A stretch of DNA of 64,000 nt from Sporohalobacter salinus (GTDB lineage: Bacteria; Bacillota; Halanaerobiia; Halobacteroidales; Acetohalobiaceae), in assembly GCF_016908635.1 (NCBI RefSeq), contig NZ_JAFBEG010000012.1:1-64000 (forward strand), written 5' to 3'. Shown piece by piece: positions 7,384-60,519 of the stretch; position 1 is the first letter of the stretch; each line of letters starts with the position of its first letter. The translations under genes were made by a program, and so were the position numbers. A model generated the notes under the pieces. It saw only the letters and a program-made list of their open reading frames with translations. It was not told where the DNA came from and ran no database searches.

Positions 7384-7386
7384 CAC

Positions 7387-7736
7387 AATACTCCCCTTTC
7401 AATTGCAAATTTTATCTTTTATCTACCATTATTAGGATATAGTTAAATAAAAAACAATAATTACCTTTTAATTATAGCATTTTTTATAATTATTTCTATA
7501 AAAGGCAATATATTTAATATAACTGTAATCAGGATAGATAAAATAAAAACTGCATATTTCAACAGTCAACTAATTTCTTATTTCAAACTTAATATATTTA
7601 TTTTATAAAAAAGTTTATTTTTATACTCAATTACAACTTAACAATTTCAATATCAACTATTTTATATATAAACATAAATATCACTTATTAAAAATATGAT
7701 TATATAAAGTTAATAAATAGTTAAGGAGGTTTTATT
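7387..7736. other. Intergenic region, no gene seen
   Basis: This 350-base AT-rich gap lies between the outer-membrane protein relic (minus) and ylbJ (plus), so it must hold the ylbJ promoter. No clear promoter pair, repeat or RNA structure was recognised. AAGGAGG at 7723-7729 is the ribosome site of ylbJ and fixes its TTG start at 7737. Confidence 0.5.
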
Positions 7737-11330: not shown

Positions 11331-12425
11331 ATGATGTTAGTTAGTTTATTTCATAATATGACCTTAATTATTTCCTTTATATTTATAGGAGTTAGGCTAA
11401 GAAAATTTATCATGAGAAAAACAAATAATAATTCAATTTTTAGATTGATACTCCCTATTATAGTAGGTTTATTGTCAACTACAACTATGATGGAACCATT
11501 TAAATATAAAAAAATGATATTTGATTTAAGACATGTTCCCGTCTTTTTAATTACATATGGATTGGGCTGGAAAAAAGGACTATTTTCTATTATACCTCCA
11601 ACGATTTATCAAGTATATTTAGGAGAAAATACAGCCAAGCCAGGTGTTATACTTGGGCTTTTATTACCAGTTTTAATCGGACATATTTTTTATGATTATA
11701 AAAAAATAAAACCCCTATTAGTTAAAATTAATATAAAAGAAGTTTTAACTAGCTATTTAATTTTCAGTATCATTAAGTCAATATTACAATTTTTTGTAAT
11801 AGATATCCCTTTTAAATTATGGATTAAATTAACTATAAATGTAACTATATTTTCTTTAATATCTTTATTTATTATACTCTTGATTATTAAAGATATAAAT
11901 CAATCAACTGTACTTAAAAAAGAATTAGAACGAAAAGCTAACTATGATGTTATGACTGGCCTACCTAATCTAAATCATTTTAAAAATAAAGCCAAAGAAG
12001 CAATGAAATGTAAAACTCCAATAATAATTATAATGGTAGATATAGATAACTTTAAAGACTATAATGATATTCACGGCCATCCTGCTGGAAATAAAGCACT
12101 TCAAAGATTAGCTAAAATCTTAAAAAATAATACAAGAAATAGTGATTTAGTAGCTAGATATGGCGGAGAAGAATTTATTTTAGGAGTTCCTAATATTTCA
12201 AATAAAGAAGAGGCTTTTTTCGTTGCTAAAAGATTTAGAATGAAAGTAGAAAAATATCAATTTGAAGGAGAAGAAGCACTACCTAATAAAAATTTAACAA
12301 TTTCCCTTGGAATTAGTTCTATATCTTATAACAAATCACTAGATGAATTAATTCAAGAAGCCGATAAAGCTTTATATAGTTCAAAAAACAAAGGAAAAAA
12401 CTGCATAAACTTTTTTGATTTATAG
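11331..12425 (+). CDS. Membrane diguanylate cyclase with 5TM-type N-terminus and GGDEF domain
   Basis: The 364 residues begin with five or six membrane helices (about 1-190) that resemble the 5TM domain of LytS-type receptors (note MEPFKYKKMIFDLRHVP). A GGDEF domain follows, with intact GGEEF in ARYGGEEFILG and a typical MTGLPNLNHF opening. It should synthesise cyclic di-GMP. AGGAGG lies just before ATGATG; either ATG could be used. A bidirectional terminator follows. Together with the divergent gene at 9261 it forms a pair of cyclic di-GMP signalling genes. Confidence 0.88.
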   Translation: MMLVSLFHNMTLIISFIFIGVRLRKFIMRKTNNNSIFRLILPIIVGLLSTTTMMEPFKYKKMIFDLRHVPVFLITYGLGWKKGLFSIIPPTIYQVYLGENTAKPGVILGLLLPVLIGHIFYDYKKIKPLLVKINIKEVLTSYLIFSIIKSILQFFVIDIPFKLWIKLTINVTIFSLISLFIILLIIKDINQSTVLKKELERKANYDVMTGLPNLNHFKNKAKEAMKCKTPIIIIMVDIDNFKDYNDIHGHPAGNKALQRLAKILKNNTRNSDLVARYGGEEFILGVPNISNKEEAFFVAKRFRMKVEKYQFEGEEALPNKNLTISLGISSISYNKSLDELIQEADKALYSSKNKGKNCINFFDL

Positions 12426-14108: not shown

Positions 14109-15869
14109 TCATGAGTTATATTTTCTATACAAAGTTGCCATACTAATTCCTAATTTTTGAGCAATCTTTTTTTTAGCTTCAGTTGTTCTTCCATATTCTT
14201 GCAAGTATTGTTCAATAATGAAACTTTCAAACTCTTCTACTTGTTGTGCTAAATTACCATTAAATTGATCTAATATCTGTTCTTTATCTTGCTGATCACT
14301 TTCTTGTAAATATTTAGGTAAATCATTGAATTTTATAGTTGGCCCACTTGATAAGTTAATAGCATACTCTATCACATTCTCCAATTCTCTAACATTCCCC
14401 GGCCAAGAATAATTCAATAACTTTTTCTTTGCCTTAGAGGATAATTCTTTTTTTACCATCCCCATTAACTTAGCAAATTTACCTAAAAAATATTCACAAT
14501 AAAGCAGAATATCTCCCCGTTCCTGTAAAGTCGGAATATTAATTGGAATTACATTCAATCTATAATATAAATCTTTTCTAAACTCACCCTTGTCTATTAA
14601 TTTCTTCAAATCTCTATGTGTAGCTGAAATTATTCTCACATCTACATCTATTGGCCTATTATTACCTATTTTTTCTATCTTTCTTTCCTGAATTACTCGC
14701 AATAACTTAGGCTGTAACTGTAACGGCATATCTCCAATCTCATCTAAAAATATAGTCCCGCCATCTGCTATCTCAAACTTTCCTTTCTTTCCTCCTTTTT
14801 TGGCACCAGTAAAGGAACCAGCTTCATAACCAAAAAGTTCACTCTCTAAAAGAGAATCGGGAATTGCAGAACAATTAATTACTACAAAATCTTCTTCACT
14901 TCTATTACTTGTATTGTGTATTGCCTTAGCAAATAACTCTTTACCTGTCCCGCTTTCTCCTTGTAACAAAACATTAGAATTACTATTTGCTGCTCTTTTA
15001 GCCTTTTTCTTAACTTCTTTAAAAACTTCTGATTCACCAATAATTTCTTTAAAAGTAATATTTGAATGATCATGTACTAAATTATGAGCCAATGATACTA
15101 TATCTTTTATTTCTTTAAAAGATATAATTAAAGCCGTCTTTTGACCATCAATAATGATAGGAGTAATTGTATAATATACATTCAACTTTTTATTATTTGC
15201 TTTCCAAGTAGCATTCGAACCTGTTTCAAAATCTAAATGTTTAACATTTAATCCTTTAATTTTTTCATCATATCTAGTTCCAATAATATCTTCTCTATTT
15301 AAATCTAATATTTCTAATGCCTTTTTGTTTATATGTGAAATCATATCATGGGAATCAATTAAAATTACTCCTTCTTCCATTGAATCAATAATTGTATCTA
15401 CTTGCTTTTTTTCCAATTCTAATTTTTCTAGAGTATCCATCACAACTGCTTGACTTTCTAAGAGTTGTGACATTTCTTTAAGAAAAGATAATAATGACTC
15501 ACTCTTTAAATTAATATTATCACACTGCTTTTTATTAAAAGCTATTAACCCAATTACCCCCACAGTTTCTCCCCTGATCTGTATAGGATAACCCATTGTT
15601 GCTTCTTCTTTACATCTATCAAACTTATCACATTCTCGACATATTTGATTAGTCTTAGAATCAGTAATGAGCTTTGGATCACCTGTTTTTAATATCTGAT
15701 CAAATATAGAATTAGTAGGAACTTTGCTTCCAATCTCCTCTTTATAAGGACCAGTTCCCGCTAATCTAATAAAGTCTTGATTAACAATTGTTACTTCTAC
15801 TTCTAAAGAAACAGAAATCGCTACAGCTACTGACTGAACAATATCTTGGATTGAATCTAAAGTATTCAT
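14109..15869 (-). CDS. Sigma-54-dependent transcriptional activator (GAF/PAS-AAA+-Fis)
   Basis: This 586-residue activator drives sigma-54 promoters. Domains in order: an N-terminal sensory region with CRECDKFDRC near residue 70, whose clustered cysteines may bind metal or sense sulfur compounds; a PAS domain (about 150-260); an AAA+ ATPase (about 270-500) with Walker A GESGTGKE, the sigma-54 contact loop in the form GSFTGA, and Walker B GGTIFLDEIGD; and a C-terminal Fis-type helix-turn-helix. It starts 13 bases after the methyltransferase gene ends, so the two may be co-transcribed. Its likely target is cyuA, downstream. Confidence 0.9.
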   Translation of the reverse strand: MNTLDSIQDIVQSVAVAISVSLEVEVTIVNQDFIRLAGTGPYKEEIGSKVPTNSIFDQILKTGDPKLITDSKTNQICRECDKFDRCKEEATMGYPIQIRGETVGVIGLIAFNKKQCDNINLKSESLLSFLKEMSQLLESQAVVMDTLEKLELEKKQVDTIIDSMEEGVILIDSHDMISHINKKALEILDLNREDIIGTRYDEKIKGLNVKHLDFETGSNATWKANNKKLNVYYTITPIIIDGQKTALIISFKEIKDIVSLAHNLVHDHSNITFKEIIGESEVFKEVKKKAKRAANSNSNVLLQGESGTGKELFAKAIHNTSNRSEEDFVVINCSAIPDSLLESELFGYEAGSFTGAKKGGKKGKFEIADGGTIFLDEIGDMPLQLQPKLLRVIQERKIEKIGNNRPIDVDVRIISATHRDLKKLIDKGEFRKDLYYRLNVIPINIPTLQERGDILLYCEYFLGKFAKLMGMVKKELSSKAKKKLLNYSWPGNVRELENVIEYAINLSSGPTIKFNDLPKYLQESDQQDKEQILDQFNGNLAQQVEEFESFIIEQYLQEYGRTTEAKKKIAQKLGISMATLYRKYNS

Positions 15870-15882
15870 AGCTCTCCCCTTT

Positions 15883-17088
15883 TTATGCCTTATACTCCAT
15901 TATCTGTAGACAATTATTTTTTATTCTATCCAAATAATTATTTAATTCAGTCTTTTCTTCTTCTGTAAACCCTTTTAATATTATATTCTCTATTTTCTCC
16001 AACAGCGGCCATAGCTTAGCTAATAATTCTTCGCCTTTTTTAGTTATTTCAATTTCCTCATAATATTCTTTATTAATAAGTCCAGATTCATATAACGGAT
16101 TAATAAATTCTTTAAATCTATCTTCATAAAACCCAAATTGTTCTTTAATTTGGGGCTCGTTCATCTGTGATTCTCTCTTTAATACCATTAAAAATATAAT
16201 TTGATCTCCAGTAAAATCAGTTACCTTACTTTCTGATATTTTAATATTAAGAGCTTTTCGAATCAACTGTGAAGTTACATTTATTTCTCTACCAATTGTA
16301 TCTAATATCTTTTCCGCCAACATTATTAACGCCTCCTTTAATCTTAGCTCATAAATGCTAATCCCTGTAGCAACACCTACATTAAGAGATTCAACATCTG
16401 TATGCATTGGAATTTGCACAATATGATCTGCCTCCTCTAATACTTCATCTGATACTCCTGAACTTTCATTTCCTACTACTAAAGCTATTGGCTTCTTATC
16501 TAGATCAACCATCGATTGTAATGACTTACCATAAGGACTTGTAGCAACTATTTGGTACCCTTCTTTTTTAAGAGAGGAAACTGCTTTTTTAGGATCATTA
16601 TATCTTTTAAAATTAACTTTAAATGAAGTTCCTCGTGAAGCATCAATAGTTTTTGGAAAAAAGGGATCGAAATCCTCATTAGTTGCTATGAAATTATCAA
16701 TTCCATAGGCCCGTCCAGTTCTAATTATAGTTCCAATGTTACCATGATCTTTAACATTATCTAATAAAAGAACAAAATCATCTAAATAATAATCAGATGA
16801 ACTTTCTGCAACACCAACACAAGGAATTAAATAATTAGTTTCAGTGATTTTCTTTAAAATTCCATTTGAAGTTTGGTATACTGGTGCAGAAAATTCATTG
16901 TACTGATTGGGATCTTCATTTTTACCTATAAAAATACTTTTTATTGTTACTCTAGAATATTCTGCCCACCTTAATTGCTCTAATCCACGTAATTGAATTT
17001 TATTTTTCTTTCTTCTATTATTACTTTTAGCTAATTCTCTCGCTTCTTGTACTAAAGGATTTTTTAATTTTTCTATTTTTTTTACCAT
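15883..17088 (-). CDS. SpoU/TrmH-family RNA 2'-O-methyltransferase with C-terminal winged-helix-like extension
   Basis: Residues about 1-255 are an SpoU RNA ribose methyltransferase: an N-terminal substrate-binding part, then the knotted SAM domain with NVKDHGNIGTIIRTGRAYG, LVVGNESSGVSDEV and SLNVGVATGISIYE. Residues about 265-401 are unlike the usual family tail; they include ITKKGEELLAKLWPLLEKIE, which resembles the end of a MarR-type winged helix. The product could be an rRNA methylase with a regulatory or RNA-binding module. It lies upstream of the sigma-54 activator. The methylase part is secure and the tail is tentative. Confidence 0.82.
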   Translation of the reverse strand: MVKKIEKLKNPLVQEARELAKSNNRRKKNKIQLRGLEQLRWAEYSRVTIKSIFIGKNEDPNQYNEFSAPVYQTSNGILKKITETNYLIPCVGVAESSSDYYLDDFVLLLDNVKDHGNIGTIIRTGRAYGIDNFIATNEDFDPFFPKTIDASRGTSFKVNFKRYNDPKKAVSSLKKEGYQIVATSPYGKSLQSMVDLDKKPIALVVGNESSGVSDEVLEEADHIVQIPMHTDVESLNVGVATGISIYELRLKEALIMLAEKILDTIGREINVTSQLIRKALNIKISESKVTDFTGDQIIFLMVLKRESQMNEPQIKEQFGFYEDRFKEFINPLYESGLINKEYYEEIEITKKGEELLAKLWPLLEKIENIILKGFTEEEKTELNNYLDRIKNNCLQIMEYKA

Positions 17089-38501: not shown

Positions 38502-38697
38502 ATAAAGTCGAAGTCCGGTTCCTTAACTTAGACTGATGTTATGGTCTGCATACTTACTCGATCCCCTATAGATACCTTGCGCAATGGACTTCAATGTTCA
38601 AAATTTCCTATCAACATTGCCATTCAGCTATAGAGTCTTAACTTTTACCCTAATAGGACTTACACCTATTGGATATGTCCAGCTTCGCTGGACATGC
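38502..38697 (-). mobile_element. Group II intron fragment, copy d (5' part and 3' terminus only)
   Basis: The 196 bases keep the intron 5' region, starting GCATGTCCAGCG on the minus strand, and a short 3' end, ACTTCGACTTTAT; the middle, including domain V, is missing. It splits attC8 exactly after GTT, the same site used by the other three copies. It cannot be active by itself. Confidence 0.8.
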
Positions 38698-40756: not shown

Positions 40757-41525
40757 ATAGGGTCGAAGTCTGATGCCTTAACTTAGGTTGATATTTGTTT
40801 TCGCCGTTTGTTCACCCTTTCGTCTGTGAGTGCCACAATATCTCATCCTTATCAGGTTCCCAGTCCCCGCCTCATCAAACCGTACGTACGGTTCTCCCGC
40901 ATACGGCTTTCCTATTAATTTCTTCTCAAACTCTATAAGCATAATCCTTCTTAGATTTAAGATATATTCTCTTCCTCAAATCTTGTAAACTTATGGACGC
41001 TTTTATCATTTAGCCCTTACCTCCTGTCTTGTCCGAGAAATCATCAATAGTAGGGCTCCTTTGCTATATGAAGTTATACTTTCTTCATAATCTTAGCTAA
41101 TACGAACCCATCCGTCACCCTCTTCTTTTCCAATTCATTTCCTAGGTCTTAGTTATAGAATTTTCTTTGCTCAAGTGATTTCTCACAGGAAGAAGTAAGG
41201 TTTCTCCAGTTCCAGACATATCCGTGTATACATACCACCGCTAATACTCCGTTGGTGTGTATAAATGTATCAGTCAATTTTCATTTATACATTCTGTCTT
41301 CACTCAGACGTTAAAAGTTCGACCACCAAATTTACCCCTTTCGAAGCTACTGTGCGTTCACTGATGTTATGGTCTGCATACTTGCTCGATATCCTATAGA
41401 TATCTTTGTCAATGGACTTCAATGTTTAAAGTTTCCTATCAACATTGCCATTCAGCTATAGAGTCTTAACTTTTACTCTAATAGAACTTACACCTATTGG
41501 ATATGTCCAGCTTCGCTGGACATGC
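40757..41525 (-). mobile_element. Group II intron, copy c, maturase gene deleted
   Basis: This 769-base copy has the full 5' region, the ribosome site and first codons of the maturase gene (MIKASISLQDLRKRIYLKSKK), then jumps directly to domain V (CCGTATGCGGGAGAACCG, near 40880-40913) and a long 3' tail ending GACTTCGACCCTAT. It splits attC7 after GTT. The ORF-less form could be mobile only with a maturase supplied in trans. Confidence 0.85.
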
Positions 41526-42874: not shown

Positions 42875-43496
42875 GTAGGGTCGAAGTCTAGTGCCTTAAC
42901 TTAGGTTGATATTTGTTTTCGCCGTTTGTTCACCCTTTCGTCTGTGAGTGCCACAATATCTCATCCTTATCAGGTTCCCAGTCCCCGCCTCATCAAACCG
43001 TACGTACGGTTCTCCCGTATACGGCTTTCCTATTAATTTCTTCTTAACCTCTATAAGCATAATCCTTCTTAGATTTAAGATATATTCTCTTCCTCAAGTC
43101 TTGTAGACTTATGTAGGTCTTAGTTATAGAATTTTCTTTGCTCAAGTGATTTCTCACAGGAAGAAGTAAGGTCTCTCCAGTTCCAGACATATCCGTGTAT
43201 ACATACCACCGCTAATACTCCGTTGGTGTGTATAAATGTATCAGTCAATTTTCATTTATACATTCTGTCTTCACTCAGACGTTAAAAGTTCGACCACCAA
43301 ATTTACCCCTTTCGAAGCTACTGTGCGTTCACTGATGTTATGGTCTGCATACTTGCTCGATATCCTATAGATATCTTTGTCAATGGACTTCAATGTTTAA
43401 AGTTTCCTATCAACATTGCCATTCAGCTATAGAGTCTTAACTTTTACTCTAATAGAACTTACACCTATTGGATATGTCCAGCTTCGCTGGACATGC
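42875..43496 (-). mobile_element. Group II intron, copy b, maturase gene deleted
   Basis: This 622-base copy has the intron 5' region and domain V (near 42998-43031), with the same 3' tail ending GACCCTAC, but has lost the maturase gene and part of the domains before it. It splits attC6 after GTT. It is nearly identical to copies a and c in shared parts, which indicates recent spread. Confidence 0.85.
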
Positions 43497-47155: not shown

Positions 47156-49056
47156 GTAGGGTCGAAGTCTGATGCCTTAACTTAGATTGATGTTTGTTTT
47201 CGCCGTTTGCTCACCCTTTCGTCTGTGAGTGCCACAATATCTCATCCCTATCAGGTTCCCAGTCCCCGCCTCATCAAACCGTACGTACGGTTCTCCCGTA
47301 TACGGCTTTCCTATTAATTTTTTTCTTAAATCTTATAAGTTTAAGCTGGTTTAACTTTCGCTATAGCAAGCTAATTTATAACTATCAAATAAACCTATTT
47401 CATCATATAACTACTCGCTACTCCATCTCTTCCAGCCATATCCCTTTTTACCTCGCTGCTTCATGAGATACCTTCTTACTTTCTTTTCTACATAATCTCT
47501 TATATAAGAAAAGCAATTCTCTGAGTTTCCTATGGAAAAGTAATTTACCCAACCTCTTAATATTGCATTTAATTCTGTTATCATCATCTCAAATATTCCT
47601 GTTGTCCTATGCTTTCGGATTATTTCCTTTATTTTCTGCAATAATGCTGTTCTTTTCTTCATTTGAGGTACTGTCAGAACACCCCATTTTCCACTGAAAG
47701 TCTTTCTTCTTTTCAAAGTAAATCCGAGAAAGCTTATTCTTTCTCCTTTTTCTAGGTTTACTACCTTGGTTTTCTCCTTGTTTACTTTTACCTTTATTTT
47801 ATCTAGTTCTGTATATTTACCTTTACTCTTTGTTACTTCTTTTGCTCTCTCAAGCATTTTATCTACTTCATTTAAATATAGATTAGCAAATAGTGGTGAA
47901 ATTACTCCACCTTGTGGTACACCTTCTTTTCCACTAGCCTTAAGCATCAGCTTAATTAAGTGCATTATTTCTTTATCGACTACTCTTTTAGCAATCTTAG
48001 ATAGCAATATATGGTGCTTTACTGTATCGAAGTAACTCGATAAGTCAAGATCTATCACTTTCCTCTTTCCACTTACTATTGCTTTTTCTATTTTCTTTAC
48101 TGCTTGATGAGCTGTTCGTTTTGGTCGATATCCATAAGAACCTTCTTGAAAATCTGCTTCAAATATTGGCTCTAATATTAACTTTAATGCTCCCTGTACT
48201 ATTCTATCTTTGATGGTTGGTATACCTAATACTCTTACTTTTCCATTTCCTTTAGGTATCTCTTGTTTTCGGTTTTCCTGTGGCTTGTATGTCTTATTTA
48301 CTAGTTCTTCTCTTATCTTTTGAAGATATTTTAATATTCCTATCTCTTCAATATCTTCAGAAGTTATTCCATCTATTCCTGAAGAACCTTTCTTCTTTCT
48401 TGCAATTGTATAAGCTTTTAGTAACGTATCTAACTTACATATATGAACATACCCCCCCAAAATTTATGGGATTCTTCCTTCTTAGATTTAAGATATATTC
48501 TCTTCCTCAAGTCTTGTAAACTTATGGACGCTTTTATCATTTCGCCCTTACCTCCTATCTTGTCCGAGAAATCATCAATAGTAGGGCTCCTTTGCTATAT
48601 GAAGTTATACTCTCTTCATAATCTTCGCTAATACGAACCCATCCGTCACCCTCTTCTTTTCCAATTCATTTCCTAGGTCTTAGTTATAGAATTTTCTTTG
48701 CTCAAGTGATTTCTCACAGAAAGAAGTAAGGTTTCTCCAGTTCCAGACATATCCGTGTATACATACCACCGCTAATACTCCGTTGGTGTGTATAAATGTA
48801 TCAGTCAATTTTCATTTATACATTCTGTCTTCACTCAGACGTTAAAAGTTCGACCACCAAATTTACCCCTTTCGAAGCTACTGTGCGTTCACTGATGTTA
48901 TGGTCTGCATACTTGCTCGATATCCTATAGATATCTTTGTCAATGGACTTCAATGTTCAAAGTTTCCTATCAACATTGCCATTCAGCTATAGAGTTTTAA
49001 CTTTTACTCTAATAGGACTTACACCCATTGGATATGTCCAGCTTCGCTGGACATGC
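47156..49056 (-). mobile_element. Group II intron, copy a, with degenerate maturase gene
   Basis: This 1,901-base copy is inserted after GTT of attC3. It starts GCATGTCCAGCGAAGC on the minus strand and ends CGACCCTAC. Domain V (AGCCGTATACGGGAGAACCG, continuing into ACGTACGG) lies near 47278-47312, with about 120 bases of 3' sequence behind it. The 5' exon is the attC hairpin followed by GTT. The maturase gene inside is a pseudogene, so this copy also needs help in trans. Intron class is not determined; insertion into attC resembles published group IIC-attC introns. Confidence 0.88.
47344..48540 (-). pseudogene. ltrA: Group II intron reverse transcriptase/maturase, inactivated
   Basis: The gene starts at ATG 48540 after GGAGG (MIKASISLQDLRKRIYL). 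A run of seven G near 48455 shifts the frame in the middle of HKFWG/GYVHICK. An open part at 47411-48460 has RT motifs (KVRVLGIPTIKDRIVQGALK, FEADFQEGSYGYRPKRTAHQ, VPQGGVISPL), but about 35 residues with the catalytic YADD box are missing between KGKYT and ELDKIKV. A TAG then cuts off WSSE from LYDEIGLFDSYKLA at the end. Three independent lesions mean no active enzyme. Confidence 0.9.
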
Positions 49057-49188
49057 AACGTCCGTCCCGCAGCTTCGCGACGTCCCATCAATGCTCTATA
49101 GCCTTATTTAATGCAACCTGAGTTTCATAAGTCAGCTTTAGCTCCCATTTTTGCACTGCAACTGGATGTCGCTAAGCTGCTGTTAGGT
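49057..49188 (-). repeat. attC3-like recombination site, interrupted by intron copy a
   Basis: R'' is ACCTAAC, the arms AGCTTAGCGACATCC and GGACGTCGCGAAGCT pair, and R' is GTT, then the intron, then AGGT. A 4-base GGAC duplication lies next to R'. R'' with flank (GTCACCTAAC) matches the start of its own cassette (GTTAGGTGAC at 52726). It ends the two-gene membrane system cassette, whose second gene stops 10 bases before R''. Confidence 0.84.
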
Positions 49189-49197
49189 GACGTTGGT

Positions 49198-50112
49198 TCA
49201 AAATTGCATTAAATAATCCACAACTTCAGTTAATTTCATTTCTCCTTTTATTAAATCTTTTTTTGTTTTTAATATATCAGAAGATGTAGGTAATCCTGAC
49301 ACACTAATTTCACAATCTAAATTAAGATTTTCAATTAATTCATTTAAACTATCTATAATATATTCTCTTAATATTGTTTGATACCAACTAAATCTTACTT
49401 CCCTTAAAACAACATAAAATTCCGTCTTATATTCTGAAGACCAATCTCTTTTATTCCAACCTATTTTTTTAAATAATTTCTCTACATATATTTTGAATTC
49501 TTCTTTATATTTATTAATATTAAAATATGATCCTTTTTTATATAAATTATCTTTCAAGAACTGTGGATTTAATTCTTTAAATTTTTTTAATTTTTTTAAA
49601 TATTTTTTGTACTCTTTAACCCCACCAAATTGAGAAGGCATACTAATGTACCATACTATATCTGAAGGTAAAATATTTAAAAACTTACCCCACTTATCAT
49701 AATCAGATATCGGTATTGCTTGGATATAATATTTAGGAATTTGAAAAAGTCTTCTAGTAGTAAAATTATGCAAATAATAATTTATTTTATCTTCTTTTCT
49801 ATATGACATAATTTCATATGCAGCTTCTCCATTCCAAGCTAACTTCTGAGCAATTTGCTGTACTACATCACATATAAGTTGGGAATTATTATGTTCAGTA
49901 TGACGATTAAATGAATTTAACATTATTTTAACTTTTTCTTCGTTGGAACCAATTATTTTTGCCGAAAAAGAATCAATTGAATTAGCCTGTATAGGTATTA
50001 CACCCCCATATAAATCTTCAACAAACATATTTAAATTTAAATTAGAACGTCGTTCATGAGAAGGATTAGAAAAATGAGCAATGGATTTGGGAGCAAAATC
50101 AATATTTTTCAT
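49198..50112 (-). CDS. Unrecognised cassette protein, partner of the large membrane protein
   Basis: The 304-residue soluble protein has no recognised family. Visible parts are an N-terminal segment with HERRSNLNLNMFVEDLYGGV, a helical region with VVQQIAQKLAWNGEAAYEIM near 85, a lysine-rich middle (about 165-215) and VRFSWYQTILREYIIDSLNELIENL near 245 (outline only). It starts 3 bases after the 854-residue gene and shares its cassette, so the two proteins likely work together. The AAYEI region faintly recalls phage portal proteins, but this is not enough to name it. Confidence 0.7.
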   Translation of the reverse strand: MKNIDFAPKSIAHFSNPSHERRSNLNLNMFVEDLYGGVIPIQANSIDSFSAKIIGSNEEKVKIMLNSFNRHTEHNNSQLICDVVQQIAQKLAWNGEAAYEIMSYRKEDKINYYLHNFTTRRLFQIPKYYIQAIPISDYDKWGKFLNILPSDIVWYISMPSQFGGVKEYKKYLKKLKKFKELNPQFLKDNLYKKGSYFNINKYKEEFKIYVEKLFKKIGWNKRDWSSEYKTEFYVVLREVRFSWYQTILREYIIDSLNELIENLNLDCEISVSGLPTSSDILKTKKDLIKGEMKLTEVVDYLMQF

Positions 50113-50115
50113 TTT

Positions 50116-52680
50116 TTATTCCTCTCCTTTAGAAGACATATATTCTTGATAGGACTCTTTCTCTTTATTTACCTTTTCTTCTAAATCATCTTTTTTCCAT
50201 CCAAAATCAATATCGCTAACTGGGTCACGTTTTGATAAGTACATCCCTACAAAAATATCTATCCCATTATACAAACTTCCCAGCCCCCCATCACAAAAAA
50301 TACGCACTAAGGGACTTTCATGAAGTACTATTTTTTCACCCGGAATACCCCCTCTGTATTCTTCCGGAATGCTAGAAAAAAGCTTTTCTATCTTCTGATT
50401 CCATTCAGTACGTACTAATTCTCTATTGGAAAGTTCAAGACTATTTTCTGATAATTGCACAACACTTGAAAATATTTTTTCTTTAGAAAATGAACTTTCA
50501 CCTGAAGTTTCTAAATATTCTTCCCAAACTTTTTTTATTTCTTTCCATAACTGATCCTTTTCATGAAATTCAGATAAAATTAAACCATAACCAGAAATAT
50601 CCATAAGATCTAACAAAGGAGCTACTGCAACTTTGAGTTTGTTTGTTGTTCTCCAACCCCCATCACCTAATTCTTCAGGCTTCAAAGAATCAAATTTATT
50701 TATACTTCCATAGAAAAAAGGTTTAAACAATTTTTCTATGGGTTCTATTTCTCCTTCAATTAAAGCATTAATAATTGATTCAGCTGTAGCATGCAAAAAT
50801 TGGCCAACATAATCAGGAAAATCATTTGAACGAGTTGGTGAAGATAATAAAACTATATGCTCTGCCATTTTACTAATAACAAATAATCTTTTATCTTCAA
50901 TAAATTCTTTTAAGTCTTCTTCCTCCAACTCTCTCCAAGACAAATCAATCCGACATTTTTTTTGTAAATTATTTAATGTGTTTTTAAATATATCAAAGAA
51001 ACGTAACAACTTATACAAATATTCTCTTTCCCGACTTAAAATGGCCGCTGTTAACCAAGGACGATTTTCCATATCAATCCTATCAAGCCAATATTCATAC
51101 TGACCAATAATATCCTTTACTAAGATATTAATATTGTTTACTATTTCTTCAGCTTTTATATTAGCTATAACTTCCGTTTGATACCATAAGGGGGTCATTA
51201 ATGAGTCTTCAATGTTAATTTCATAATTTATTTTGTCTTTAAGTTCTTCTAACTTAGGTAAAACACTTGAAGAAAAGTCATGATAATATAAATCTTTATT
51301 CGATTTCCACTTTAGTTTAGAAAGGTTTTTAGAAATTTCTTTTTTATTTGTTTTGTTAATAAGTTCTTTGTACACTAAAAATAATTCTATAGAAATTGAT
51401 GATAAAAATTCTATTAAAGTAATACTTTCTAAATCCTCATTTTTTAAAATAAATTCATCCTTTGAATTAATAATTTTATCTAATATAATCTCAGAAAGTT
51501 TATTTAAATAATTTAAGGCTTGTCTAAGTTCGCCATGATTAGATAGATTTTTTAAATAATTTTTAAATAAATTAGTTAACTCTAAAACTATTTCATCTCT
51601 CCCCTGGTTAAGATTAATCTTGATGCATCTAAATACTATAGGAATAATTTCTTTTTCAATCCAAAATTTATCATTTGAGATCTTAGGTTTAGTAAATGTA
51701 GCAGTTTGATTAGCTAAAGATGTAAACGTATCCTCTGTAAGATACCAATCTTTATGTTTATATTTTTGTTCATACCATTTACTTTTAGAAGGAATCTTAG
51801 ATTTTGAGTTTTGATAATAGTTCAAAAACCTAATAATGCTCTTAGATAACTCTGCAAAAGATTTTCCGTTTAAATTATCTTCTTGGCTTACTATATCTGC
51901 CAAGGTCTTTAAAGTATAAATGTTATCCTTAGTTTGTTTATATGCATGATTTTGAAAAGACTCATCTTTCCATTGAAATCCTCCAGCTTTAACCATATTA
52001 GTATATTTTCTAAAGTCTTGAAAAATAGAATAAGATAATTGAGTAGGGTCAAATAAATAAAAAGCTCGTTGACCTAATTTTACAAAAGAAATCAACCCAA
52101 CTCCTGTCATAGGCACAATAATTAAAACTGCTAAATGAATTCGAGGATATCCTAAAATTCGCATTAAAATTATAACCAAACTAAAAAAAGTGAGAAAAGA
52201 CATATAATTCATATAAACAATACCCATTCTTTCTTTAGCTAATAAATCACGAATGTTATTCGGAACCCGTGAGTATATAGAACTCCCAACCATATTAAGA
52301 CTTGCATAATAAAGACCAATTAAAACTCCTCCAATACTAATTATAGCAGTAAATAACATAATATAATTACTACTCTCTAGAAAACTGAAATCTAATCCAT
52401 AATATCTCAAATTGAATTTATTATCTAAATAATTACATAATTTTATAAAGTAGGGGTTTATAATTTGCAATAATATAACCGCAAAAATTGCAGCAAAAAT
52501 TTGTCCAATTGTTGCTTTTAATAATCGATATAATGAATTAACATTTTCTTTTCCATCAATGCTAGCATATCTTATCTTAAAAATATTCTTCTTAATCCAA
52601 AATAATATTTTCTTTATTATTTTTCTTAATTTCCAAAATAATTGCTTCTGTGCTAAAGAAAGAAATAAATTATTCTTCAT
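50116..52680 (-). CDS. Large membrane protein of unknown function, cassette two-gene system
   Basis: The 854 residues have a basic N-terminus, then about five membrane helices between residues 60 and 215, and a soluble C-terminal region of some 640 residues that is mostly helical, with no recognised catalytic motif. It is co-encoded with the 304-residue protein downstream. A membrane sensor or pore with a big cytoplasmic domain plus a small partner, carried as a mobile cassette beside a restriction system, suggests anti-phage defence; this is inference. Confidence 0.72.
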   Translation of the reverse strand: MKNNLFLSLAQKQLFWKLRKIIKKILFWIKKNIFKIRYASIDGKENVNSLYRLLKATIGQIFAAIFAVILLQIINPYFIKLCNYLDNKFNLRYYGLDFSFLESSNYIMLFTAIISIGGVLIGLYYASLNMVGSSIYSRVPNNIRDLLAKERMGIVYMNYMSFLTFFSLVIILMRILGYPRIHLAVLIIVPMTGVGLISFVKLGQRAFYLFDPTQLSYSIFQDFRKYTNMVKAGGFQWKDESFQNHAYKQTKDNIYTLKTLADIVSQEDNLNGKSFAELSKSIIRFLNYYQNSKSKIPSKSKWYEQKYKHKDWYLTEDTFTSLANQTATFTKPKISNDKFWIEKEIIPIVFRCIKINLNQGRDEIVLELTNLFKNYLKNLSNHGELRQALNYLNKLSEIILDKIINSKDEFILKNEDLESITLIEFLSSISIELFLVYKELINKTNKKEISKNLSKLKWKSNKDLYYHDFSSSVLPKLEELKDKINYEINIEDSLMTPLWYQTEVIANIKAEEIVNNINILVKDIIGQYEYWLDRIDMENRPWLTAAILSREREYLYKLLRFFDIFKNTLNNLQKKCRIDLSWRELEEEDLKEFIEDKRLFVISKMAEHIVLLSSPTRSNDFPDYVGQFLHATAESIINALIEGEIEPIEKLFKPFFYGSINKFDSLKPEELGDGGWRTTNKLKVAVAPLLDLMDISGYGLILSEFHEKDQLWKEIKKVWEEYLETSGESSFSKEKIFSSVVQLSENSLELSNRELVRTEWNQKIEKLFSSIPEEYRGGIPGEKIVLHESPLVRIFCDGGLGSLYNGIDIFVGMYLSKRDPVSDIDFGWKKDDLEEKVNKEKESYQEYMSSKGEE

Positions 52681-52719
52681 ATTTTTTAACTCCTAACTCT
52701 TAGTTTTTGAACCAATGTC

Positions 52720-52851
52720 ACCTAACGTCCCTGGGCTTCGCGACGTCCCATCAATGCTCTATAACCTAATCTAATGCAATCTGAATTTCATAAGTCATTC
52801 CCAACCCTCATTTATGCACTATAACTGGATGTCGCTAAGCCCATGTTAGGC
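52720..52851 (-). repeat. attC2-like recombination site
   Basis: R'' is GCCTAAC, L'' GGGCTTAGCGACATCC pairs with L' GGACGTCGCGAAGCCC, and R' is GTTAGGT. The spacers next to R'' and R' differ in length, as in known attC sites. R'' with flank (GTCGCCTAAC) matches the start of its own cassette (GTTAGGCGAC at 57014). It ends the restriction-modification cassette. Confidence 0.86.
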
Positions 52852-52954: not shown

Positions 52955-54352
52955 TTAAATCTCTCTCTTATTAATATAATTTATTATTTCATTTTCTCGG
53001 TATTTTTCTAATTTCTTAATCTTCTTTTTGCAAATATTAACTAATTTAATAGCCTGATCATACTTTGTAGCAATTTCCAGTTGAATATCTTCACTTGGAA
53101 TAGGAATATCTATTTTATTAAAGATATCTAATGTTATACCACCTTGTGCACCGCCGCTTATATATCTTTTTATTTGTTCCTGTCCAAAATCACTATTTAA
53201 TATTGCAAAAATATATTTAGCATTATATTCTGAGAGAATTGATATTCTATATAGATGCTCATTAGTAGCAGCTAAATCATATTTGAAATTTTCATTCACT
53301 ATAGCAACTTTACCTGTTGTTGCTCCATCTTTACATATTAGTATATCCATTTCATTTATTTTTATATTTGGATTATCTTTATAAAATCTTTTGGTAACAT
53401 ACTTCATATCATTGTAAACTATCTCACCATTTAAATTTATATGCTCTCCTCCTAAACTAGGAACACCTTCTTTTATATATTTAACCCCACCTTTTGGTCG
53501 CTTACCACTAGATATATTCCATACAACTTCTTTTAGTTTTTTGATATCCATTTCACTATTTTTTACTTCATAATCATAGTTTTTTAAATGGAATGAAACA
53601 TCAAATCTTTCTTTTAATTTATCCAATTCAATAGAATTTGTTTTCTTTATCTCTACAATAGACTGTTTTTTAATACTAACTTTCTCATATAAAATATTCT
53701 CAAATATTTTATATATTAACTTTATTCTGTTTTTATACTTTTTTATCTTATTAGTTATTCTTTTGTAAAAATCAATTATTTCTTGTTGAAGCTCTTTTTT
53801 AGGAACAATAACTTTTATATTTTTTATATCTTCTAAATGTAAATCTGGAACACCTATTCCTTTAATAAATTTATCTATTTGAATTTTAGTAAAAAAAGAA
53901 TTTAAATAGATTGCTAAATATTCAGGAATACATTTATCCTTAAAAACATCTTTTAATACTGCAACACTAACATAAATACTAAAATGATCATCTATATCTG
54001 GTACTACTGTAGAAACTCCTATAGTCCCTACCTTAGTAAGTAAAACATCTTCAGGTTTTGGATTAGACCCACTTAACTTCTCATATAAATACTTTGATAC
54101 ATACTTTACATCGCCAAATTCTATCTCCGTTGGCTTTATATCCTTAGAAGAAATAAATGGAACACCTTCTTCATGATAGATAGGAGTTTGATGAGACCCA
54201 TCTCTTACATCATAAACTAATTCACTTAAGGTATATACATTATGGTATTTGGAAGGATTTTTAAATCTTTTTTTTACAATGTCTTCAGCAATTATAGTTT
54301 CTACTGAAAGACGGTTGCATAAATTTTTTGCATTATTTGAAAAACACTTCAT
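52955..54352 (-). CDS. hsdS: Type I-like restriction specificity subunit (HsdS)
   Basis: The 465 residues hold two target recognition domains, about 30-190 (LSELVYDVRDGSHQTP) and 265-430 (LKEVVWNISSGKRPKGG), separated and followed by helical spacers, the standard HsdS plan. It reads DNA sequence for the methylase-nuclease subunit encoded just before it (3 bases between stop and start). It is second in the cassette; the pair resembles BcgI-type systems, which have no separate HsdR. Confidence 0.9.
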   Translation of the reverse strand: MKCFSNNAKNLCNRLSVETIIAEDIVKKRFKNPSKYHNVYTLSELVYDVRDGSHQTPIYHEEGVPFISSKDIKPTEIEFGDVKYVSKYLYEKLSGSNPKPEDVLLTKVGTIGVSTVVPDIDDHFSIYVSVAVLKDVFKDKCIPEYLAIYLNSFFTKIQIDKFIKGIGVPDLHLEDIKNIKVIVPKKELQQEIIDFYKRITNKIKKYKNRIKLIYKIFENILYEKVSIKKQSIVEIKKTNSIELDKLKERFDVSFHLKNYDYEVKNSEMDIKKLKEVVWNISSGKRPKGGVKYIKEGVPSLGGEHINLNGEIVYNDMKYVTKRFYKDNPNIKINEMDILICKDGATTGKVAIVNENFKYDLAATNEHLYRISILSEYNAKYIFAILNSDFGQEQIKRYISGGAQGGITLDIFNKIDIPIPSEDIQLEIATKYDQAIKLVNICKKKIKKLEKYRENEIINYINKREI

Positions 54353-54355
54353 AAT

Positions 54356-56926
54356 TTAAACCCCTTTATAAGTATGTTTACTTTTAATAAATTTATTCCA
54401 TTGTCCTAAAATAGTACCTTCTGCTTCTAAATCAGCTAATTTTGAATTAGATTTTTTCTTAAATAATTCATTTTTAGTCTTTTTTCCAGTAGCATCATAA
54501 CCAATATGCTCAGCTTCAGCCATAAAAACAGGTCTGTTCCATTTTTTCAGAACTTCCTTATGAGCTTCATACTCAACATCCATTTTAGTAATTTCATCTT
54601 TTTCAATTTCTAATTCTCTAATTTCTAATTGATAGTCTTCTAAAATATCATATCCTAGTCGTTTTAAAAAGTTAATTATCGTTTTAGTATAACTATTAAA
54701 TTTCTTCTCAGCAAGTTCTCTTTGAGAATATTTTTTCCTACTACTTCCTCTATTCTTCCAAGTTCTTAATCCTTTCCTAACAAAGCGATTAGAAAAATCA
54801 TTATATAAATTAACTAAACTCTCATACAATACAATAACTTCTTGTTCTAAATCATTATCTAAATAATCTATATCTACTTTTTTACCTATTTTATCATATA
54901 AACTAATAATCTTATTTTTAATTTCACTCAAATCTTCAAATTCATCATCTATACTCTTGTTAACTACTTTCTCTTTTTCTCCTCCAATCCCTAATATTTC
55001 TCCTTCTTCTTCTAATATTTCAATTTCTCCTATTTCTTGATATAAATCTTCAATTTTATCAAATATATTTTGTAAAAATGACTCTAATCCATTATTATCA
55101 ATAAATATCTGTAATTCTTCTGTTAAATTATCTATTAAACTTATTTTTTCTTTTTCCTTATTCAATATATAACGTTCTTTATCTTTTTTCCAACGATTAA
55201 ATTCATCATTTGTAAATTTCTTTATTATTAATATAGAAGTCTTTGAACCAGATCCTGTTTTCTTAAAAGCAAAATCAGGCAGAGAAATAATACCTAAAAT
55301 GTGGGCTCTTTCTTGAATATATTTTCTTACATACCAAAATGAAGAATTGTTTAATATTCCATCAGGTACTATAATAGCCATATGTCCTGGCTGAGAATTA
55401 TCTTTTCCATCATGTTTAGGTTTTAAAAGATCAATATTTCGTTCTAAAAATAAAACATCAGAAGCTTGTTTAGTTTTATCCATTCCTCCACCTAAATCAA
55501 AATCTTTCACATAAGGCTGATCTGTTTCATCATCATCTGCTTTACTACCAAAAGGAGGATTAGATAAAACAATGTCAAATGTACCTTTTTTTATTCCTTC
55601 CACATCATAAGATTCAAAATCTTGTAAACCATCTCCTATCTCAATATTAGTATGACCATCATCAAATATAATCATATCCATCATTGCAACACGAGCAATT
55701 TTTTCGTTTTTTTCTATCCCAAATACTTTGTCATTAAAATTTCTTTCTCTTCTATATCTATGATTTTGATTACTAACATTTAATCTTAACTTTTCTCTTA
55801 CATAAATCAAACTATGTAATAAAAAACCTGCTGAACCACAACTTGGATCTATAATTTTTAAATTTTCAACATTATTATCATCATATAATGACATAATTAA
55901 ATTTACAATAAATACAACCAGATTTCTATCAGTAAAATATTGTCCAAGCTTTTGCTTGAATACCGTGTCTAAAAATTGTTCAAATGCCCTTCCCTTAGCA
56001 TCTGGATCAGTATCAACTAAATTTATATGTTGCATCAAAAGAACAATCTTATATATTTTACTATCATCAGCTTTTAAATCTTCCGTAAAAACACTAGGTT
56101 TCTCATTCTTTATTTTTTTATATTTATTTCTTATTCGCTTAGCTACTTTCTTTCTATTATTAATTTCATGATTCCCTATTTGAAAATCATATGCTTCTTT
56201 ATCATTAGTTCCTAATTCATCTTGAGTCTTTATAAAAATTATCTTACTCATCTCATCAAAAGCCTCTGCTGGATCTTTTGCACCATGATCCCATAAAATT
56301 TGATGACATTTTCTAAAAAGTTTTAACAATTTACTTTGAGTTATCGTTTGTAATTCTCTTTCAGAAGTTGCTTTAATATATTTATATCTTTTAGGCTTCC
56401 CATATTCTTCTGGTAAATCAGTAACAATATTTTTCTTTCTCTCTTTTGCTCCCCACTTTTCTTTTTTCTCATCATCTTTATATAAAGAAAACACTTTTCG
56501 CTTTTCAGTTTGATTATTATCAACAATATAATATTCAGCTGCTAAGTTTAATGCATATACATATTGGTCATTTTTAGCTTTTCTCATTTCTTTTTTAGGA
56601 GCATTTTCTTCTTTAGTCTCAATAACAGCATATACATTATCAGAATTTTTATGTCTTATAACTATATCAGCTCTTTCTTTAGTAACTTTTGGTACAGTCT
56701 CTTCTATTGTAATATCTGATGGATCATATTTATATTGATATAATAATTCAGAATAAACTAAAGCCCTTACATGTTCTTCAGGATTACTAGGACCATAATT
56801 TTGCTCATTCCTTCCTTTAGCATTTACATATTTAATTTTTCCACCATTAATAATAATCTCTCTATTGTCTCTAGCTTTTTGAAAATACTCATTTCTTTTA
56901 TCAACTCTTGATTTCATATAAATCAC
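54356..56926 (-). CDS. Restriction-modification protein: nuclease-like N-terminus fused to N6-adenine methyltransferase
   Basis: Residues about 30-150 resemble the HsdR N-terminal nuclease domain: ERADIVIRH and YAVIETKEEN give the D...ExK pattern. Residues about 300-600 are an HsdM-type methyltransferase with motif I IDPSCGSAGFLL and motif IV LSNPPFGSKAD. A long coiled-coil C-terminus follows. A cut-and-methylate subunit with a separate HsdS is the BcgI (type IIB) or type IIG arrangement. There is no HsdR ATPase gene nearby. It would protect against phage or plasmid DNA. It is first in cassette 2. Confidence 0.85.
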   Translation of the reverse strand: MIYMKSRVDKRNEYFQKARDNREIIINGGKIKYVNAKGRNEQNYGPSNPEEHVRALVYSELLYQYKYDPSDITIEETVPKVTKERADIVIRHKNSDNVYAVIETKEENAPKKEMRKAKNDQYVYALNLAAEYYIVDNNQTEKRKVFSLYKDDEKKEKWGAKERKKNIVTDLPEEYGKPKRYKYIKATSERELQTITQSKLLKLFRKCHQILWDHGAKDPAEAFDEMSKIIFIKTQDELGTNDKEAYDFQIGNHEINNRKKVAKRIRNKYKKIKNEKPSVFTEDLKADDSKIYKIVLLMQHINLVDTDPDAKGRAFEQFLDTVFKQKLGQYFTDRNLVVFIVNLIMSLYDDNNVENLKIIDPSCGSAGFLLHSLIYVREKLRLNVSNQNHRYRRERNFNDKVFGIEKNEKIARVAMMDMIIFDDGHTNIEIGDGLQDFESYDVEGIKKGTFDIVLSNPPFGSKADDDETDQPYVKDFDLGGGMDKTKQASDVLFLERNIDLLKPKHDGKDNSQPGHMAIIVPDGILNNSSFWYVRKYIQERAHILGIISLPDFAFKKTGSGSKTSILIIKKFTNDEFNRWKKDKERYILNKEKEKISLIDNLTEELQIFIDNNGLESFLQNIFDKIEDLYQEIGEIEILEEEGEILGIGGEKEKVVNKSIDDEFEDLSEIKNKIISLYDKIGKKVDIDYLDNDLEQEVIVLYESLVNLYNDFSNRFVRKGLRTWKNRGSSRKKYSQRELAEKKFNSYTKTIINFLKRLGYDILEDYQLEIRELEIEKDEITKMDVEYEAHKEVLKKWNRPVFMAEAEHIGYDATGKKTKNELFKKKSNSKLADLEAEGTILGQWNKFIKSKHTYKGV

Positions 56927-57007: not shown

Positions 57008-57138
57008 GCCTAACGTCCCTAGGGTTCGCGACGTCTAGTTCAACCCTACTATAACTTGTCCATATTCTAAAGATTACATATCTAATCTTTAATTTCACCT
57101 ATCCTCCTAGTCTAGATGTCGCTAACCCTATGTTAGGT
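57008..57138 (-). repeat. attC1-like recombination site
   Basis: R'' is ACCTAAC, L'' AGGGTTAGCGACATCTAG pairs with L' CTAGACGTCGCGAACCCT, and R' is GTTAGGC. The pairing keeps only an A/C mismatch and one A/G difference, and the spacers are 2 and 6 bases. R'' with flank (TTCACCTAAC) matches the start of its own cassette at the candidate attI (GTTAGGTGAA at 59033). It closes the first cassette. Confidence 0.87.
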
Positions 57139-57154: not shown

Positions 57155-58984
57155 TTATGAAAGTTTAATTTCGGAAAATGCAGCTTTATTATCTATTCTT
57201 TTTAACTCATATTTTATGTTATCAGAACTCAAATTTTCCATTCTACTATTTAACTGATTCTCTGCTACATTAGCTCCATTACACATGTTTTTAGCTTCAA
57301 TAACAATTAGAAAAGCTCCATCTTTTTTATTAGGTAAAATTATAATACCATCAAATTCTGCTAAAGGAGTGCTTGAGGTTTTCTTCCAGACTTCTGTAGA
57401 ACCCCCAAATACAATCATGTATCCTTGATAATCTAAATCTAATAACAATTCATTTACCATTCTTATTTCATTCAATTCATCATCAGATAAAAATCCATCT
57501 GCTTTTTCAATATACTTCTGAACCTTTTCAGCAATCTTTTTAGAACCTCTATCACTAAAATACGGTTTCAAAATTGTATTTTGCAATTTCACTGTAGATA
57601 ATTTGAAATTCAAATCCCAGCCAAATACCGTTTTTAAAGCATAATTAATAACACTCTTCTTATTTTCATAAAAATTATCATTTGGATAATTAGTTTTATT
57701 TAAATTGTAATCTAATTTTATTGTTTCAGAAATAAAATTCATACAACTATTTAGTTTGTTTTCATATTTTCTATTATTTTTCAATGCAAAAGCAATTTTG
57801 AAAATATTCCCTTTTGGGTTTTTAAATCCTGAAACTATACAAGTTCGCCTACCACATTTTTCTCTGATTTTCTCCTCCCAAGATATTAAATCTTCTGGAA
57901 ACAAATCTTTATAATTATTAACATTTGAATAAACTAAATCTAAACAATTATTAGAATCCCAATTAACTTCAGGAAAAGTATGCTCTTTATAATTATTAAA
58001 TATATTAACTAATTTATTAGAATCTTTACTCTTAGGTTCTAAAAGCTTTCTTATAACTGAAACATTTTTAAATGTATGTTCATCCTCATATTTATTAAAC
58101 TTTTTCTTTAACTCAATAGCTTTATTAGTAGAAGTTATCATAGAATTACCAGATAAATATAATGAATCCTGTAGTAATATATTTATTTGTTCAATAGTGC
58201 TTTTTAATGTCTTAGCATTATTCGATAATCCACTAAATATTTGTTTTAAATTAACAACAACAGATGATAATTCTAACTTAAAAGGGAGTGGAGCATAAGT
58301 AGAATCTAATAATAGATATGATAACTTTCTAATAACTGAATATATATCCCAATATCTTTTTAAATTACTTTCCTTTTTATTTATATAATCAAGTAAAAGC
58401 TTTATTGATAATTTCAAAAGTCCTTCCTTATCTTTATAATTTGTATATCTATTTAAAAGAAATATAGCATTTATCAAATGAATATTATATATATCAAAAT
58501 CTTCTATCATTTCATCTAGTATGTCTTTTGTCTCTTGATTATTTAGTCCATTTTTTAATCCAGATCTAACTTTAGCTTTATTTTGCTTTAATAAATCTAT
58601 CCAAACCTTTGATGCAGCAAAAGTATCAGGAAAATGCCCCATATTAGCTAAGATAGAAAGACATTGAAATAATTCTCCAACTGTAGGTTTTTCACCAATA
58701 TATTCTACTTCTCCAAAATCATCTTTTTTACTTCCTAATCCAAGTCCTTCTACAGTACTCTTTAATTCATGTATGAGGTGCCATTGTAATATTATGTACT
58801 CATATCTAGTATAATGAGCACCATGAAGGCTATCTGTCAGTGCCCCTAGCTGATTAGTATAATGAAATTTTGCATCAAAATTTAAAGTAGCTAAAAAATT
58901 ATAAAGTTCATTAGCATATGGATAGACATATGTTGATATTAAACCATGTCCATTTAAATTATAACTGATTCTGTTTGCATTCAT
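57155..58984 (-). CDS. Putative defence protein with HD-like region and C-terminal PD-(D/E)xK nuclease motif
   Basis: The 609 residues are not a recognised family. Residues about 45-135 look like a degenerate HD domain: DSLHGAHYTRYEYI and ILANMGHFPDTFAAS mirror the RxH and HDxGH regions, but the HD pair itself is replaced. The middle is helical. Residues about 545-590 contain EFDGIIILPNKK and FLIVIEAKNM, the D...ExK arrangement of PD-(D/E)xK nucleases. As the first cassette it is probably the most recent arrival or the best expressed. A nucleic acid-cleaving defence effector is a reasonable guess. Confidence 0.7.
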   Translation of the reverse strand: MNANRISYNLNGHGLISTYVYPYANELYNFLATLNFDAKFHYTNQLGALTDSLHGAHYTRYEYIILQWHLIHELKSTVEGLGLGSKKDDFGEVEYIGEKPTVGELFQCLSILANMGHFPDTFAASKVWIDLLKQNKAKVRSGLKNGLNNQETKDILDEMIEDFDIYNIHLINAIFLLNRYTNYKDKEGLLKLSIKLLLDYINKKESNLKRYWDIYSVIRKLSYLLLDSTYAPLPFKLELSSVVVNLKQIFSGLSNNAKTLKSTIEQINILLQDSLYLSGNSMITSTNKAIELKKKFNKYEDEHTFKNVSVIRKLLEPKSKDSNKLVNIFNNYKEHTFPEVNWDSNNCLDLVYSNVNNYKDLFPEDLISWEEKIREKCGRRTCIVSGFKNPKGNIFKIAFALKNNRKYENKLNSCMNFISETIKLDYNLNKTNYPNDNFYENKKSVINYALKTVFGWDLNFKLSTVKLQNTILKPYFSDRGSKKIAEKVQKYIEKADGFLSDDELNEIRMVNELLLDLDYQGYMIVFGGSTEVWKKTSSTPLAEFDGIIILPNKKDGAFLIVIEAKNMCNGANVAENQLNSRMENLSSDNIKYELKRIDNKAAFSEIKLS

Positions 58985-59178: not shown

Positions 59179-60267
59179 CTAATCTAAATAATCCAGTGGG
59201 CTTTTAATATCCTCAATATTTTTCTTACTGACGTGTGTATATCTTTCAGTAGTTTTAAGATTCTTATGTCCCAATAATTTTTGAATATACCGCAAATCAG
59301 TCCCCTTTTCTAGTAAATGAGTAGCAAAAGAATGTCTTAATGAATGAATTCCTACTTCTTTTTTAATCCCAGCCTTTCTACAAGCTTTTTTAAACACTCT
59401 CTGTACAGAACGCTCTGTTAAATAAGTTCCTTCCTTACCACCTGGAAAAAGCCATCCTTCCTCTATACGGTATTTTTTAGAATATCTTCTAAGTTCCTTA
59501 AGAGCAACTTCAGACAATAGAGTATAACGATCTTTCTTACCTTTTCCCTGCTTTACCCGTATTAACATCCTTTCACTATCAATATCTTCTACTTTTAAAG
59601 AAACTACTTCACTAACCCGTAACCCTGCCGAATAAACTAAATTTAAAATAGCACGATGTTTATAATTTTTTAAAACACTTAATATCTCAGCTACCTCTTC
59701 TTCACTTAATACATTAGGAAGTTTTCTTCCCTTCTTAGGACGTGGAATATTAACAGTTACTCTTTCTTTCTCTAATACTTCATTATAAAGAAATTTAATT
59801 GCACTTAAAGCCTGATTAGTATAACCAGAAGATCGTTCTTGCTTCTCCAAAAGTAATAATAAATATTCTCGTACATCATTCTCTTTTAATTCTTTTGGTT
59901 TTTTCGCATGGTATTCTACATATCTTCTAATATGTCCTAGATAAACATCACAAGTCTTAGAACTATAATTTTGTAATTTAATCTCATCTTTCACTTCTTG
60001 CAAAAAACTTCTCATCCATAATTTTTCAAGTTGCTTCTCTGTTTGATTAACTTCAATATTAAGACTTGAATCTATCACTATTTCTTCATTAGCAAAAATA
60101 TCTAAAAGTTTATTAACTGCATCCTTAGTATAAGGAATAGTCCAAAACTTCTCTTCAGGATGCCACTGGCGACCATAAATTAGCTTAATCTTCTCTACCC
60201 GTTCAGGTGTATAATCAAACTCAACAATTATTTCTTTCTCTTCACCTTTTTTAATCTCAATCCCCAT
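59179..60267 (-). CDS. Tyrosine recombinase, candidate integron integrase lacking the IntI insertion
   Basis: The 362-residue recombinase starts with a roughly 80-residue domain including GRQWHPEEKFWTIPYT. A core-binding domain (about 90-175, with NQALSAIKFLYNEVL) and a catalytic domain follow, with the arginine in AGLRVSEV, lysine in KGKKDR, HSLRHSF, LGHKNLKTTERY and the nucleophilic tyrosine in RYTHV, ending in SPLD as IntI proteins do. The 16-20 residue insertion before the HxxR motif that marks IntI is absent. The ATG at 60267 has AGAGGG upstream; the frame is open to 60378 without a ribosome site. Confidence 0.9.
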   Translation of the reverse strand: MGIEIKKGEEKEIIVEFDYTPERVEKIKLIYGRQWHPEEKFWTIPYTKDAVNKLLDIFANEEIVIDSSLNIEVNQTEKQLEKLWMRSFLQEVKDEIKLQNYSSKTCDVYLGHIRRYVEYHAKKPKELKENDVREYLLLLLEKQERSSGYTNQALSAIKFLYNEVLEKERVTVNIPRPKKGRKLPNVLSEEEVAEILSVLKNYKHRAILNLVYSAGLRVSEVVSLKVEDIDSERMLIRVKQGKGKKDRYTLLSEVALKELRRYSKKYRIEEGWLFPGGKEGTYLTERSVQRVFKKACRKAGIKKEVGIHSLRHSFATHLLEKGTDLRYIQKLLGHKNLKTTERYTHVSKKNIEDIKSPLDYLD

Positions 60268-60519
60268 TCTATCGCCCTCTTTATTTTCGTAAAAAATACT
60301 ATTATTGAAATTTTTTCTACCTAATAATGTTATTAGATAATTAAATACATAATCCCTGTTCAAAATTAAAATTGACACCTTATTTTTCCAAAATGTGATA
60401 AATAGATTATTTATTTAAAGATTATATTAAAAACAATCTTGTTGAATCATTGACAGAAAATCCTACAAATCTTTTCTATAGTTCTTCATATACTAAGTTG
60501 TAAGGAGGTAGGAATAAAA

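Follow-up and report, generated by a model that had tools for sequence, protein, structure and literature searches.

Integrons are established reservoirs of anti-phage cassettes, both in Vibrio and in mobile integrons (PMC12409362). Among the known systems, the one nearest in architecture to the locus presented here is Kiwa (KwaA and KwaB), which is likewise made of two genes, one for a multi-helix membrane protein and one for a soluble partner of about 315 aa (as judged from KwaA- and KwaB-type ORFs). In this study, we followed up two adjacent genes found in a 64,000-nucleotide stretch of DNA from Sporohalobacter salinus (hereafter, the window; all coordinates refer to it unless another locus is named). 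The pair is carried as an integron gene cassette, and we examine here its genetic setting, its homologues and their neighbours, and the predicted structure of its two products.

Results

A two-gene operon on an integron cassette

The two genes of the pair are as follows:

50116-52680, minus strand: big gene, 854 aa, ATG start
49198-50112, minus strand: small gene, 304 aa, soluble product, ATG start

The stop codon of the big gene and the start codon of the small gene are separated by 3 nt, and a plausible ribosome-binding site precedes each ORF (TTAGGAGTT and GGAGAGG). The initial annotation had listed ORFs of 854 and 304 residues at this spacing, and both are found on the minus strand at the positions it gave. 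Since full-length homologues of both occur in four other lineages (31-39% identity for the big protein, 28-39% for the small protein), the two ORFs are real genes. The annotation had further described the pair as moving as one cassette and had assigned it to 49198-52680. These coordinates are those of the genes; the mobile unit, which runs from attC to attC, is slightly larger. The cassette and the attC sites around it are the following:

about 49059-52725, minus strand: integron gene cassette with both genes, about 3.67 kb, with a 40-nt leader, the 3-nt gap and an 11-nt tail before attC
49053-49187, minus strand: attC of the pair cassette; the arms pair well, and the R' end is replaced (GTTGCAT) at a group II intron insertion
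52720-52851, minus strand: upstream attC, which closes the preceding hsdM/hsdS cassette; canonical RYYYAAC...GTTRRRY, paired arms
57008-57138, minus strand: intact canonical attC between the first and second cassettes of the array; RYYYAAC/GTTRRRY ends, paired arms

The attC sites on both sides of the pair, the upstream one canonical and the downstream one recognisable but interrupted by the intron, are strong support for its mobility as a single cassette. The pattern GATGTCGCTAA-N(4-8)-GTTA occurs at six sites (41631, 43602, 46281, 49165, 52828 and 57115), where the expectation by chance is 0, and a control for canonical attC sites on shuffled sequence gave 0 per 64 kb. Compact spacing between gene and attC is typical of integron cassettes, and the compact attC-to-attC spacing found here means that the two genes are moved jointly.

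The array and its recombinase

The array consists, in order, of a recombinase, a cassette for a 609-aa protein, the hsdM/hsdS cassette, the pair, a group II intron, an IS91-type transposase and a SoFic-like Fic protein. Its main features are listed below:

59179-60378, minus strand: tyrosine recombinase heading the array, codirectional with the cassettes, with an N-terminal extension of about 120 aa
59020-59150, minus strand: attI-like region, recognised by inspection, with short direct repeats (GAGTATTTACGACA and similar) and GTTAGGT
57155-58984, minus strand: first cassette, 609-aa protein with no family match and the C-terminus FDGIIILP...FLIVIEAKN
52955-56926, minus strand: second cassette, type I-like restriction-modification (RM), with a specificity subunit (52955-54352) and an N6 methyltransferase carrying an HSDR_N_2 domain (54356-56926)
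47156-49052, minus strand: group II intron at the attC of the pair cassette, with an RT/maturase ORF (47411-48460) and matches to RF02003 (48893-49030) and RF00029 (47156-47310)
41671-42729: SoFic-like Fic protein (PADLOC SoFic, E 2.2e-37)

The restriction system previously reported beside the pair is confirmed as the type I-like RM of the neighbouring cassette. In its methyltransferase the HSDR_N_2 domain is N-terminal and the specificity subunit adjoins, and the cassette is devoid of a separate HsdR; methyltransferase and specificity subunit together are perhaps a compact RM enzyme. By eye, the C-terminus of the 609-aa protein looks like a PD-(D/E)XK nuclease, and the protein may be regarded as a candidate defence nuclease. 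An inverted repeat followed by a T run lies between hsdS and the attC of the RM cassette. Because the pair is third in the array, behind this terminator-like repeat and with a leader of 40 nt, its cassette may be silent or weakly expressed. The group II intron at its other end belongs to a type of which four copies of the 5' part are present (38534-38671, 41362-41499, 43333-43470 and 48893-49030). At least three of the four are at attC sites, and two have in common a 300-nt block that is 100% identical.

The catalytic residues of the recombinase appear to be intact. Compared with the integron integrase model TIGR02249, the protein aligns in two pieces that score below the cut-off, with model positions 181-235 skipped across about 15 residues, and the IntI-specific insertion was not found in this comparison. 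With the XerA-type model NF040815, its score exceeds the cut-off. An integron whose recombinase has no IntI-specific insertion and carries an N-terminal extension of about 120 aa possibly represents a distinct integron class. Related recombinases are present in 27 of the 61 genomes searched, this genome included. Within the same order, a locus from another genus (G012, L049) has a recombinase (15346-16512 of that locus) that carries an N-terminal extension of this type and heads an attC-like array with sites of the same core at 11912-12043, 10568-10698, 8753-8882 and 3030-3160. One of the cassettes there encodes a Shedu protein (SduA, E 1.7e-29). This type of integron is therefore found in at least two genera of the order, with defence genes in both. 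The L049 array also contains, at 3191-7471, a gene for a 1426-aa ATPase-like protein with a weak match to mad8 (1.7e-4). The integron itself may be no less interesting than the pair.

Homologues of the pair and their neighbours

A search of 150 other genomes identified a single relative, in Peptococcaceae bacterium UBA5757. Syntrophaceae bacterium UBA5764 came from a scan of the collection, and three plasmid records, those of Paenibacillus lautus, Paenibacillus sp. Cedars and Burkholderia glumae, came from tblastn. The two Paenibacillus copies are near-identical and were therefore counted once, which gives four further lineages: Peptococcaceae, Syntrophaceae, the Paenibacillus plasmids and the Burkholderia glumae plasmid. 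The lineages with the pair span Bacillota, a Syntrophaceae MAG and Pseudomonadota. According to the initial annotation, a defence role would be contradicted if the two genes rarely occurred together or if homologues had an established non-defence role. In all five lineages both genes are adjacent, in the same order and on the same strand, and none of the homologues found has such a role. The Syntrophaceae small gene is cut by a contig end, with profile positions 2-95 at the end of contig C73 and positions 95-308 at the end of C89, and these two contigs presumably join within the gene.

The pair is present in 2 of 398 sampled Bacillota genomes (its own genome included) and in 3 of 72,556 plasmids; in the phylum to which the Syntrophaceae MAG belongs, 1 of 345 genomes has it, namely the MAG. 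No relative was found among 50,697 phage records, nor in viral contigs by a pattern scan with both proteins, and further genome searches gave no extra homologue. Such a patchy and rare distribution fits horizontal transfer. Beside the other homologous pairs, no attC-like sites above chance were detected at the threshold used. The two genes form an accessory operon that moves horizontally and resides on an integron cassette in this genome and on plasmids or islands elsewhere.

A defence gene is found next to the pair in four of the five loci (a raw count, n=5), each time of a different type, and this is suggestive of a defence role. Besides the RM cassette described above, the start of a type III Mod gene (a 47-aa ORF) follows the small gene by about 50 nt in Peptococcaceae; this ORF is 89% identical to a site-specific DNA-methyltransferase of Aminobacter, which is there followed by a DEAD/DEAH helicase, the arrangement of type III RM. 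In Syntrophaceae, the gene just downstream of the pair codes for a PLD nuclease that matches PLDc_2 and RE_NgoFVII of Pfam as well as DrmC of PADLOC. Pair and nuclease are inserted between the gene for an MrfA-type helicase and that for an RNase_H_2 exonuclease, which we take to be MrfB-like, and the gap between these two genes is a possible insertion hotspot. In Burkholderia, the big gene is immediately preceded by a C-terminal remnant of GajB (E 8.5e-28), and VapBC is encoded further upstream. The matches near the Paenibacillus copies are weak (DzbB, 7e-8; Csx1/Csm6, 8e-4).

Neighbouring integron cassettes are acquired independently, which counts against reading defence from neighbours. The pair could instead be a mobile accessory membrane system of a non-defence kind, with an envelope or stress function or as a module that stabilises the cassette or plasmid, and could have spread on islands and plasmids that also carry defence genes. 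Three of the pair records are indeed plasmids, integron cassettes carry many functions, the pair is preceded by VapBC in Burkholderia, and a search of the pair for known effector domains detected none. However, such a role hardly explains why the pair directly adjoins a different type of defence gene in each of four lineages (again as a raw count), and the Peptococcaceae and Syntrophaceae copies are located on short MAG contigs with no sign of a plasmid. On balance, we consider a non-defence role of this sort unlikely, though it deserves to be kept in mind.

Comparison with known protein families and predicted structures

The earlier observation that neither protein has a recognisable family is upheld. 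Neither the two proteins nor their homologues or the profiles of these gave an above-threshold match in Pfam, NCBIfam or PDB sequences. PADLOC-DB 2.0.0 returned no match for either protein at E up to 1, and the matches obtained in PDB profile searches, and in PHROGs with the small protein, were at chance level. A match of the small protein to AAA_23 was discarded (E 0.0095, below the cut-off and in one of four members). No catalytic motif was recognised in either protein.

The alignment behind each structure model consists of three sequences. For the big protein, hydropathy peaks are found at residues 56-74, 106-124 and 181-199, and the model places helices near the N-terminus at 46-89, 104-136, 141-175 and 181-208. 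The N-terminal membrane helices proposed initially are thus retained; their number is about four rather than about five. They are predicted to be followed by an all-helical soluble region of solenoid type (aa ~210-850) in a model of weak confidence (mean pLDDT 53), for which Foldseek and VIA-align returned importins, other solenoids and designed helical repeats. The small protein gave no usable model (pLDDT 35), so fold searches with it are uninformative.

The size and order of the two products bear on whether the pair might be a module of the toxin-antitoxin type, in which a toxic membrane protein would be restrained by its small partner and the cassette would stabilise the array, with defence maybe as a by-product. 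The tight two-gene operon, its conserved order and a membrane protein as possible toxin can all be accommodated in this way, and toxin-antitoxin systems were found to be abundant in hypersaline integrons (PMC7923331). Yet 854 aa is far above the typical size of a membrane toxin, the putative antitoxin is encoded second in the operon and is larger than usual, and no toxin-antitoxin family is matched. A module of this type is, in our view, improbable.

A further thought concerns the small protein. By eye, the order of motifs in its middle and C-terminal parts is like that of HK97-type portals, and the C-terminal segments come out in register with theirs under hhalign. One could thus imagine that a phage portal-type protein was domesticated and now serves at the membrane to capture virion parts or to mimic them. 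The hhalign comparison, made with HK97-type, P2 and Mu portals and with reversed and shuffled controls, gave a probability of 0.1%, the same as for the reversed control, and a score of 14.3 against 15.8 +/- 2.8 for column-shuffled controls, with a method that has little power here, as it also misses the Mu portal. Neither Pfam nor PHROGs contains a portal match of the small protein. A phage-portal origin is unsupported by these comparisons, and we give it hardly any credence.

Discussion

Since the pair is mobile as a single cassette and lies beside known defence genes in unrelated bacteria, it is a good candidate anti-phage system. We favor the interpretation that it is a two-component anti-phage or anti-plasmid defence system, with a probability of roughly 55%. 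A new defence system had been suggested in the initial annotation, and this suggestion gains from the conserved pairing, the mobility of the cassette and the defence neighbours in four of five loci; the role as such remains putative, with a small set of five loci, weak structural models and no recognised catalytic motif. A fuller and more tentative proposal, to which we would assign slightly less than an even chance, is that of a new two-component anti-phage system made up of a helical solenoid anchored in the membrane and a dedicated soluble partner working with it, carried on an unusually large cassette of a defence-storing Bacillota integron with a recombinase other than classical IntI.

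How might such a defence system work? According to the prediction, about four helices anchor the big protein in the inner membrane, and its large alpha-solenoid faces the cytoplasm. The soluble partner could dock on this solenoid, and both might jointly sense a cue of infection. The membrane part may then permeabilise the membrane, halting the infected cell before phages are released; alternatively, it may block incoming DNA at the membrane. The attC boundaries define the exact functional DNA unit, and a simple test could therefore be made on one 3.67-kb cassette. If the pair protects against phage, it would constitute a defence system whose two protein families have no match among the models of the libraries searched, and which occurs in Pseudomonadota as well as in Bacillota. 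The view of integrons as stores of phage defence, for which reviews have so far drawn mainly on Vibrio and on mobile integrons, would then also take in Bacillota and large cassettes of two genes.

How does the pair compare with what has been described? Kiwa differs in that KwaA has no large soluble domain. Membership in this system was rejected: neither protein matches the Kiwa models of PADLOC or Pfam, and the small protein, when aligned with two KwaB sequences by hhalign, gave a probability of 0.8%, which is not significant. The big protein resembles DUF2254 (PF10011) in that its N-terminal part has several membrane helices, the second of which is followed by a short loop, and hhalign aligns the two in the same register. 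The score (18.4 versus 15.9 +/- 3.1 for shuffled controls) is not significant and membership was not accepted; the five big-protein homologues have no match to PF10011 at E up to 1. The all-helical soluble part of the big protein aligns best to solenoid and designed helical-repeat proteins and is in this respect similar to HEAT/ARM-type alpha-solenoids, but with Foldseek TM values of at most 0.18 and a model of low confidence the likeness is to a generic helical arrangement only. The defence cassettes of Vibrio and mobile integrons are similarly attC-bounded genes without assigned function, a proportion of which are anti-phage, and they have been described as streamlined to small size (PMC12409362). 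The pair differs from these in being a two-gene cassette of 3.67 kb, in residing in a Bacillota genome, in its association with a different recombinase and in that its activity is that of a candidate. Integron cassettes with anti-phage activity are already known, and the novelty here lies in the two protein families and in their setting.
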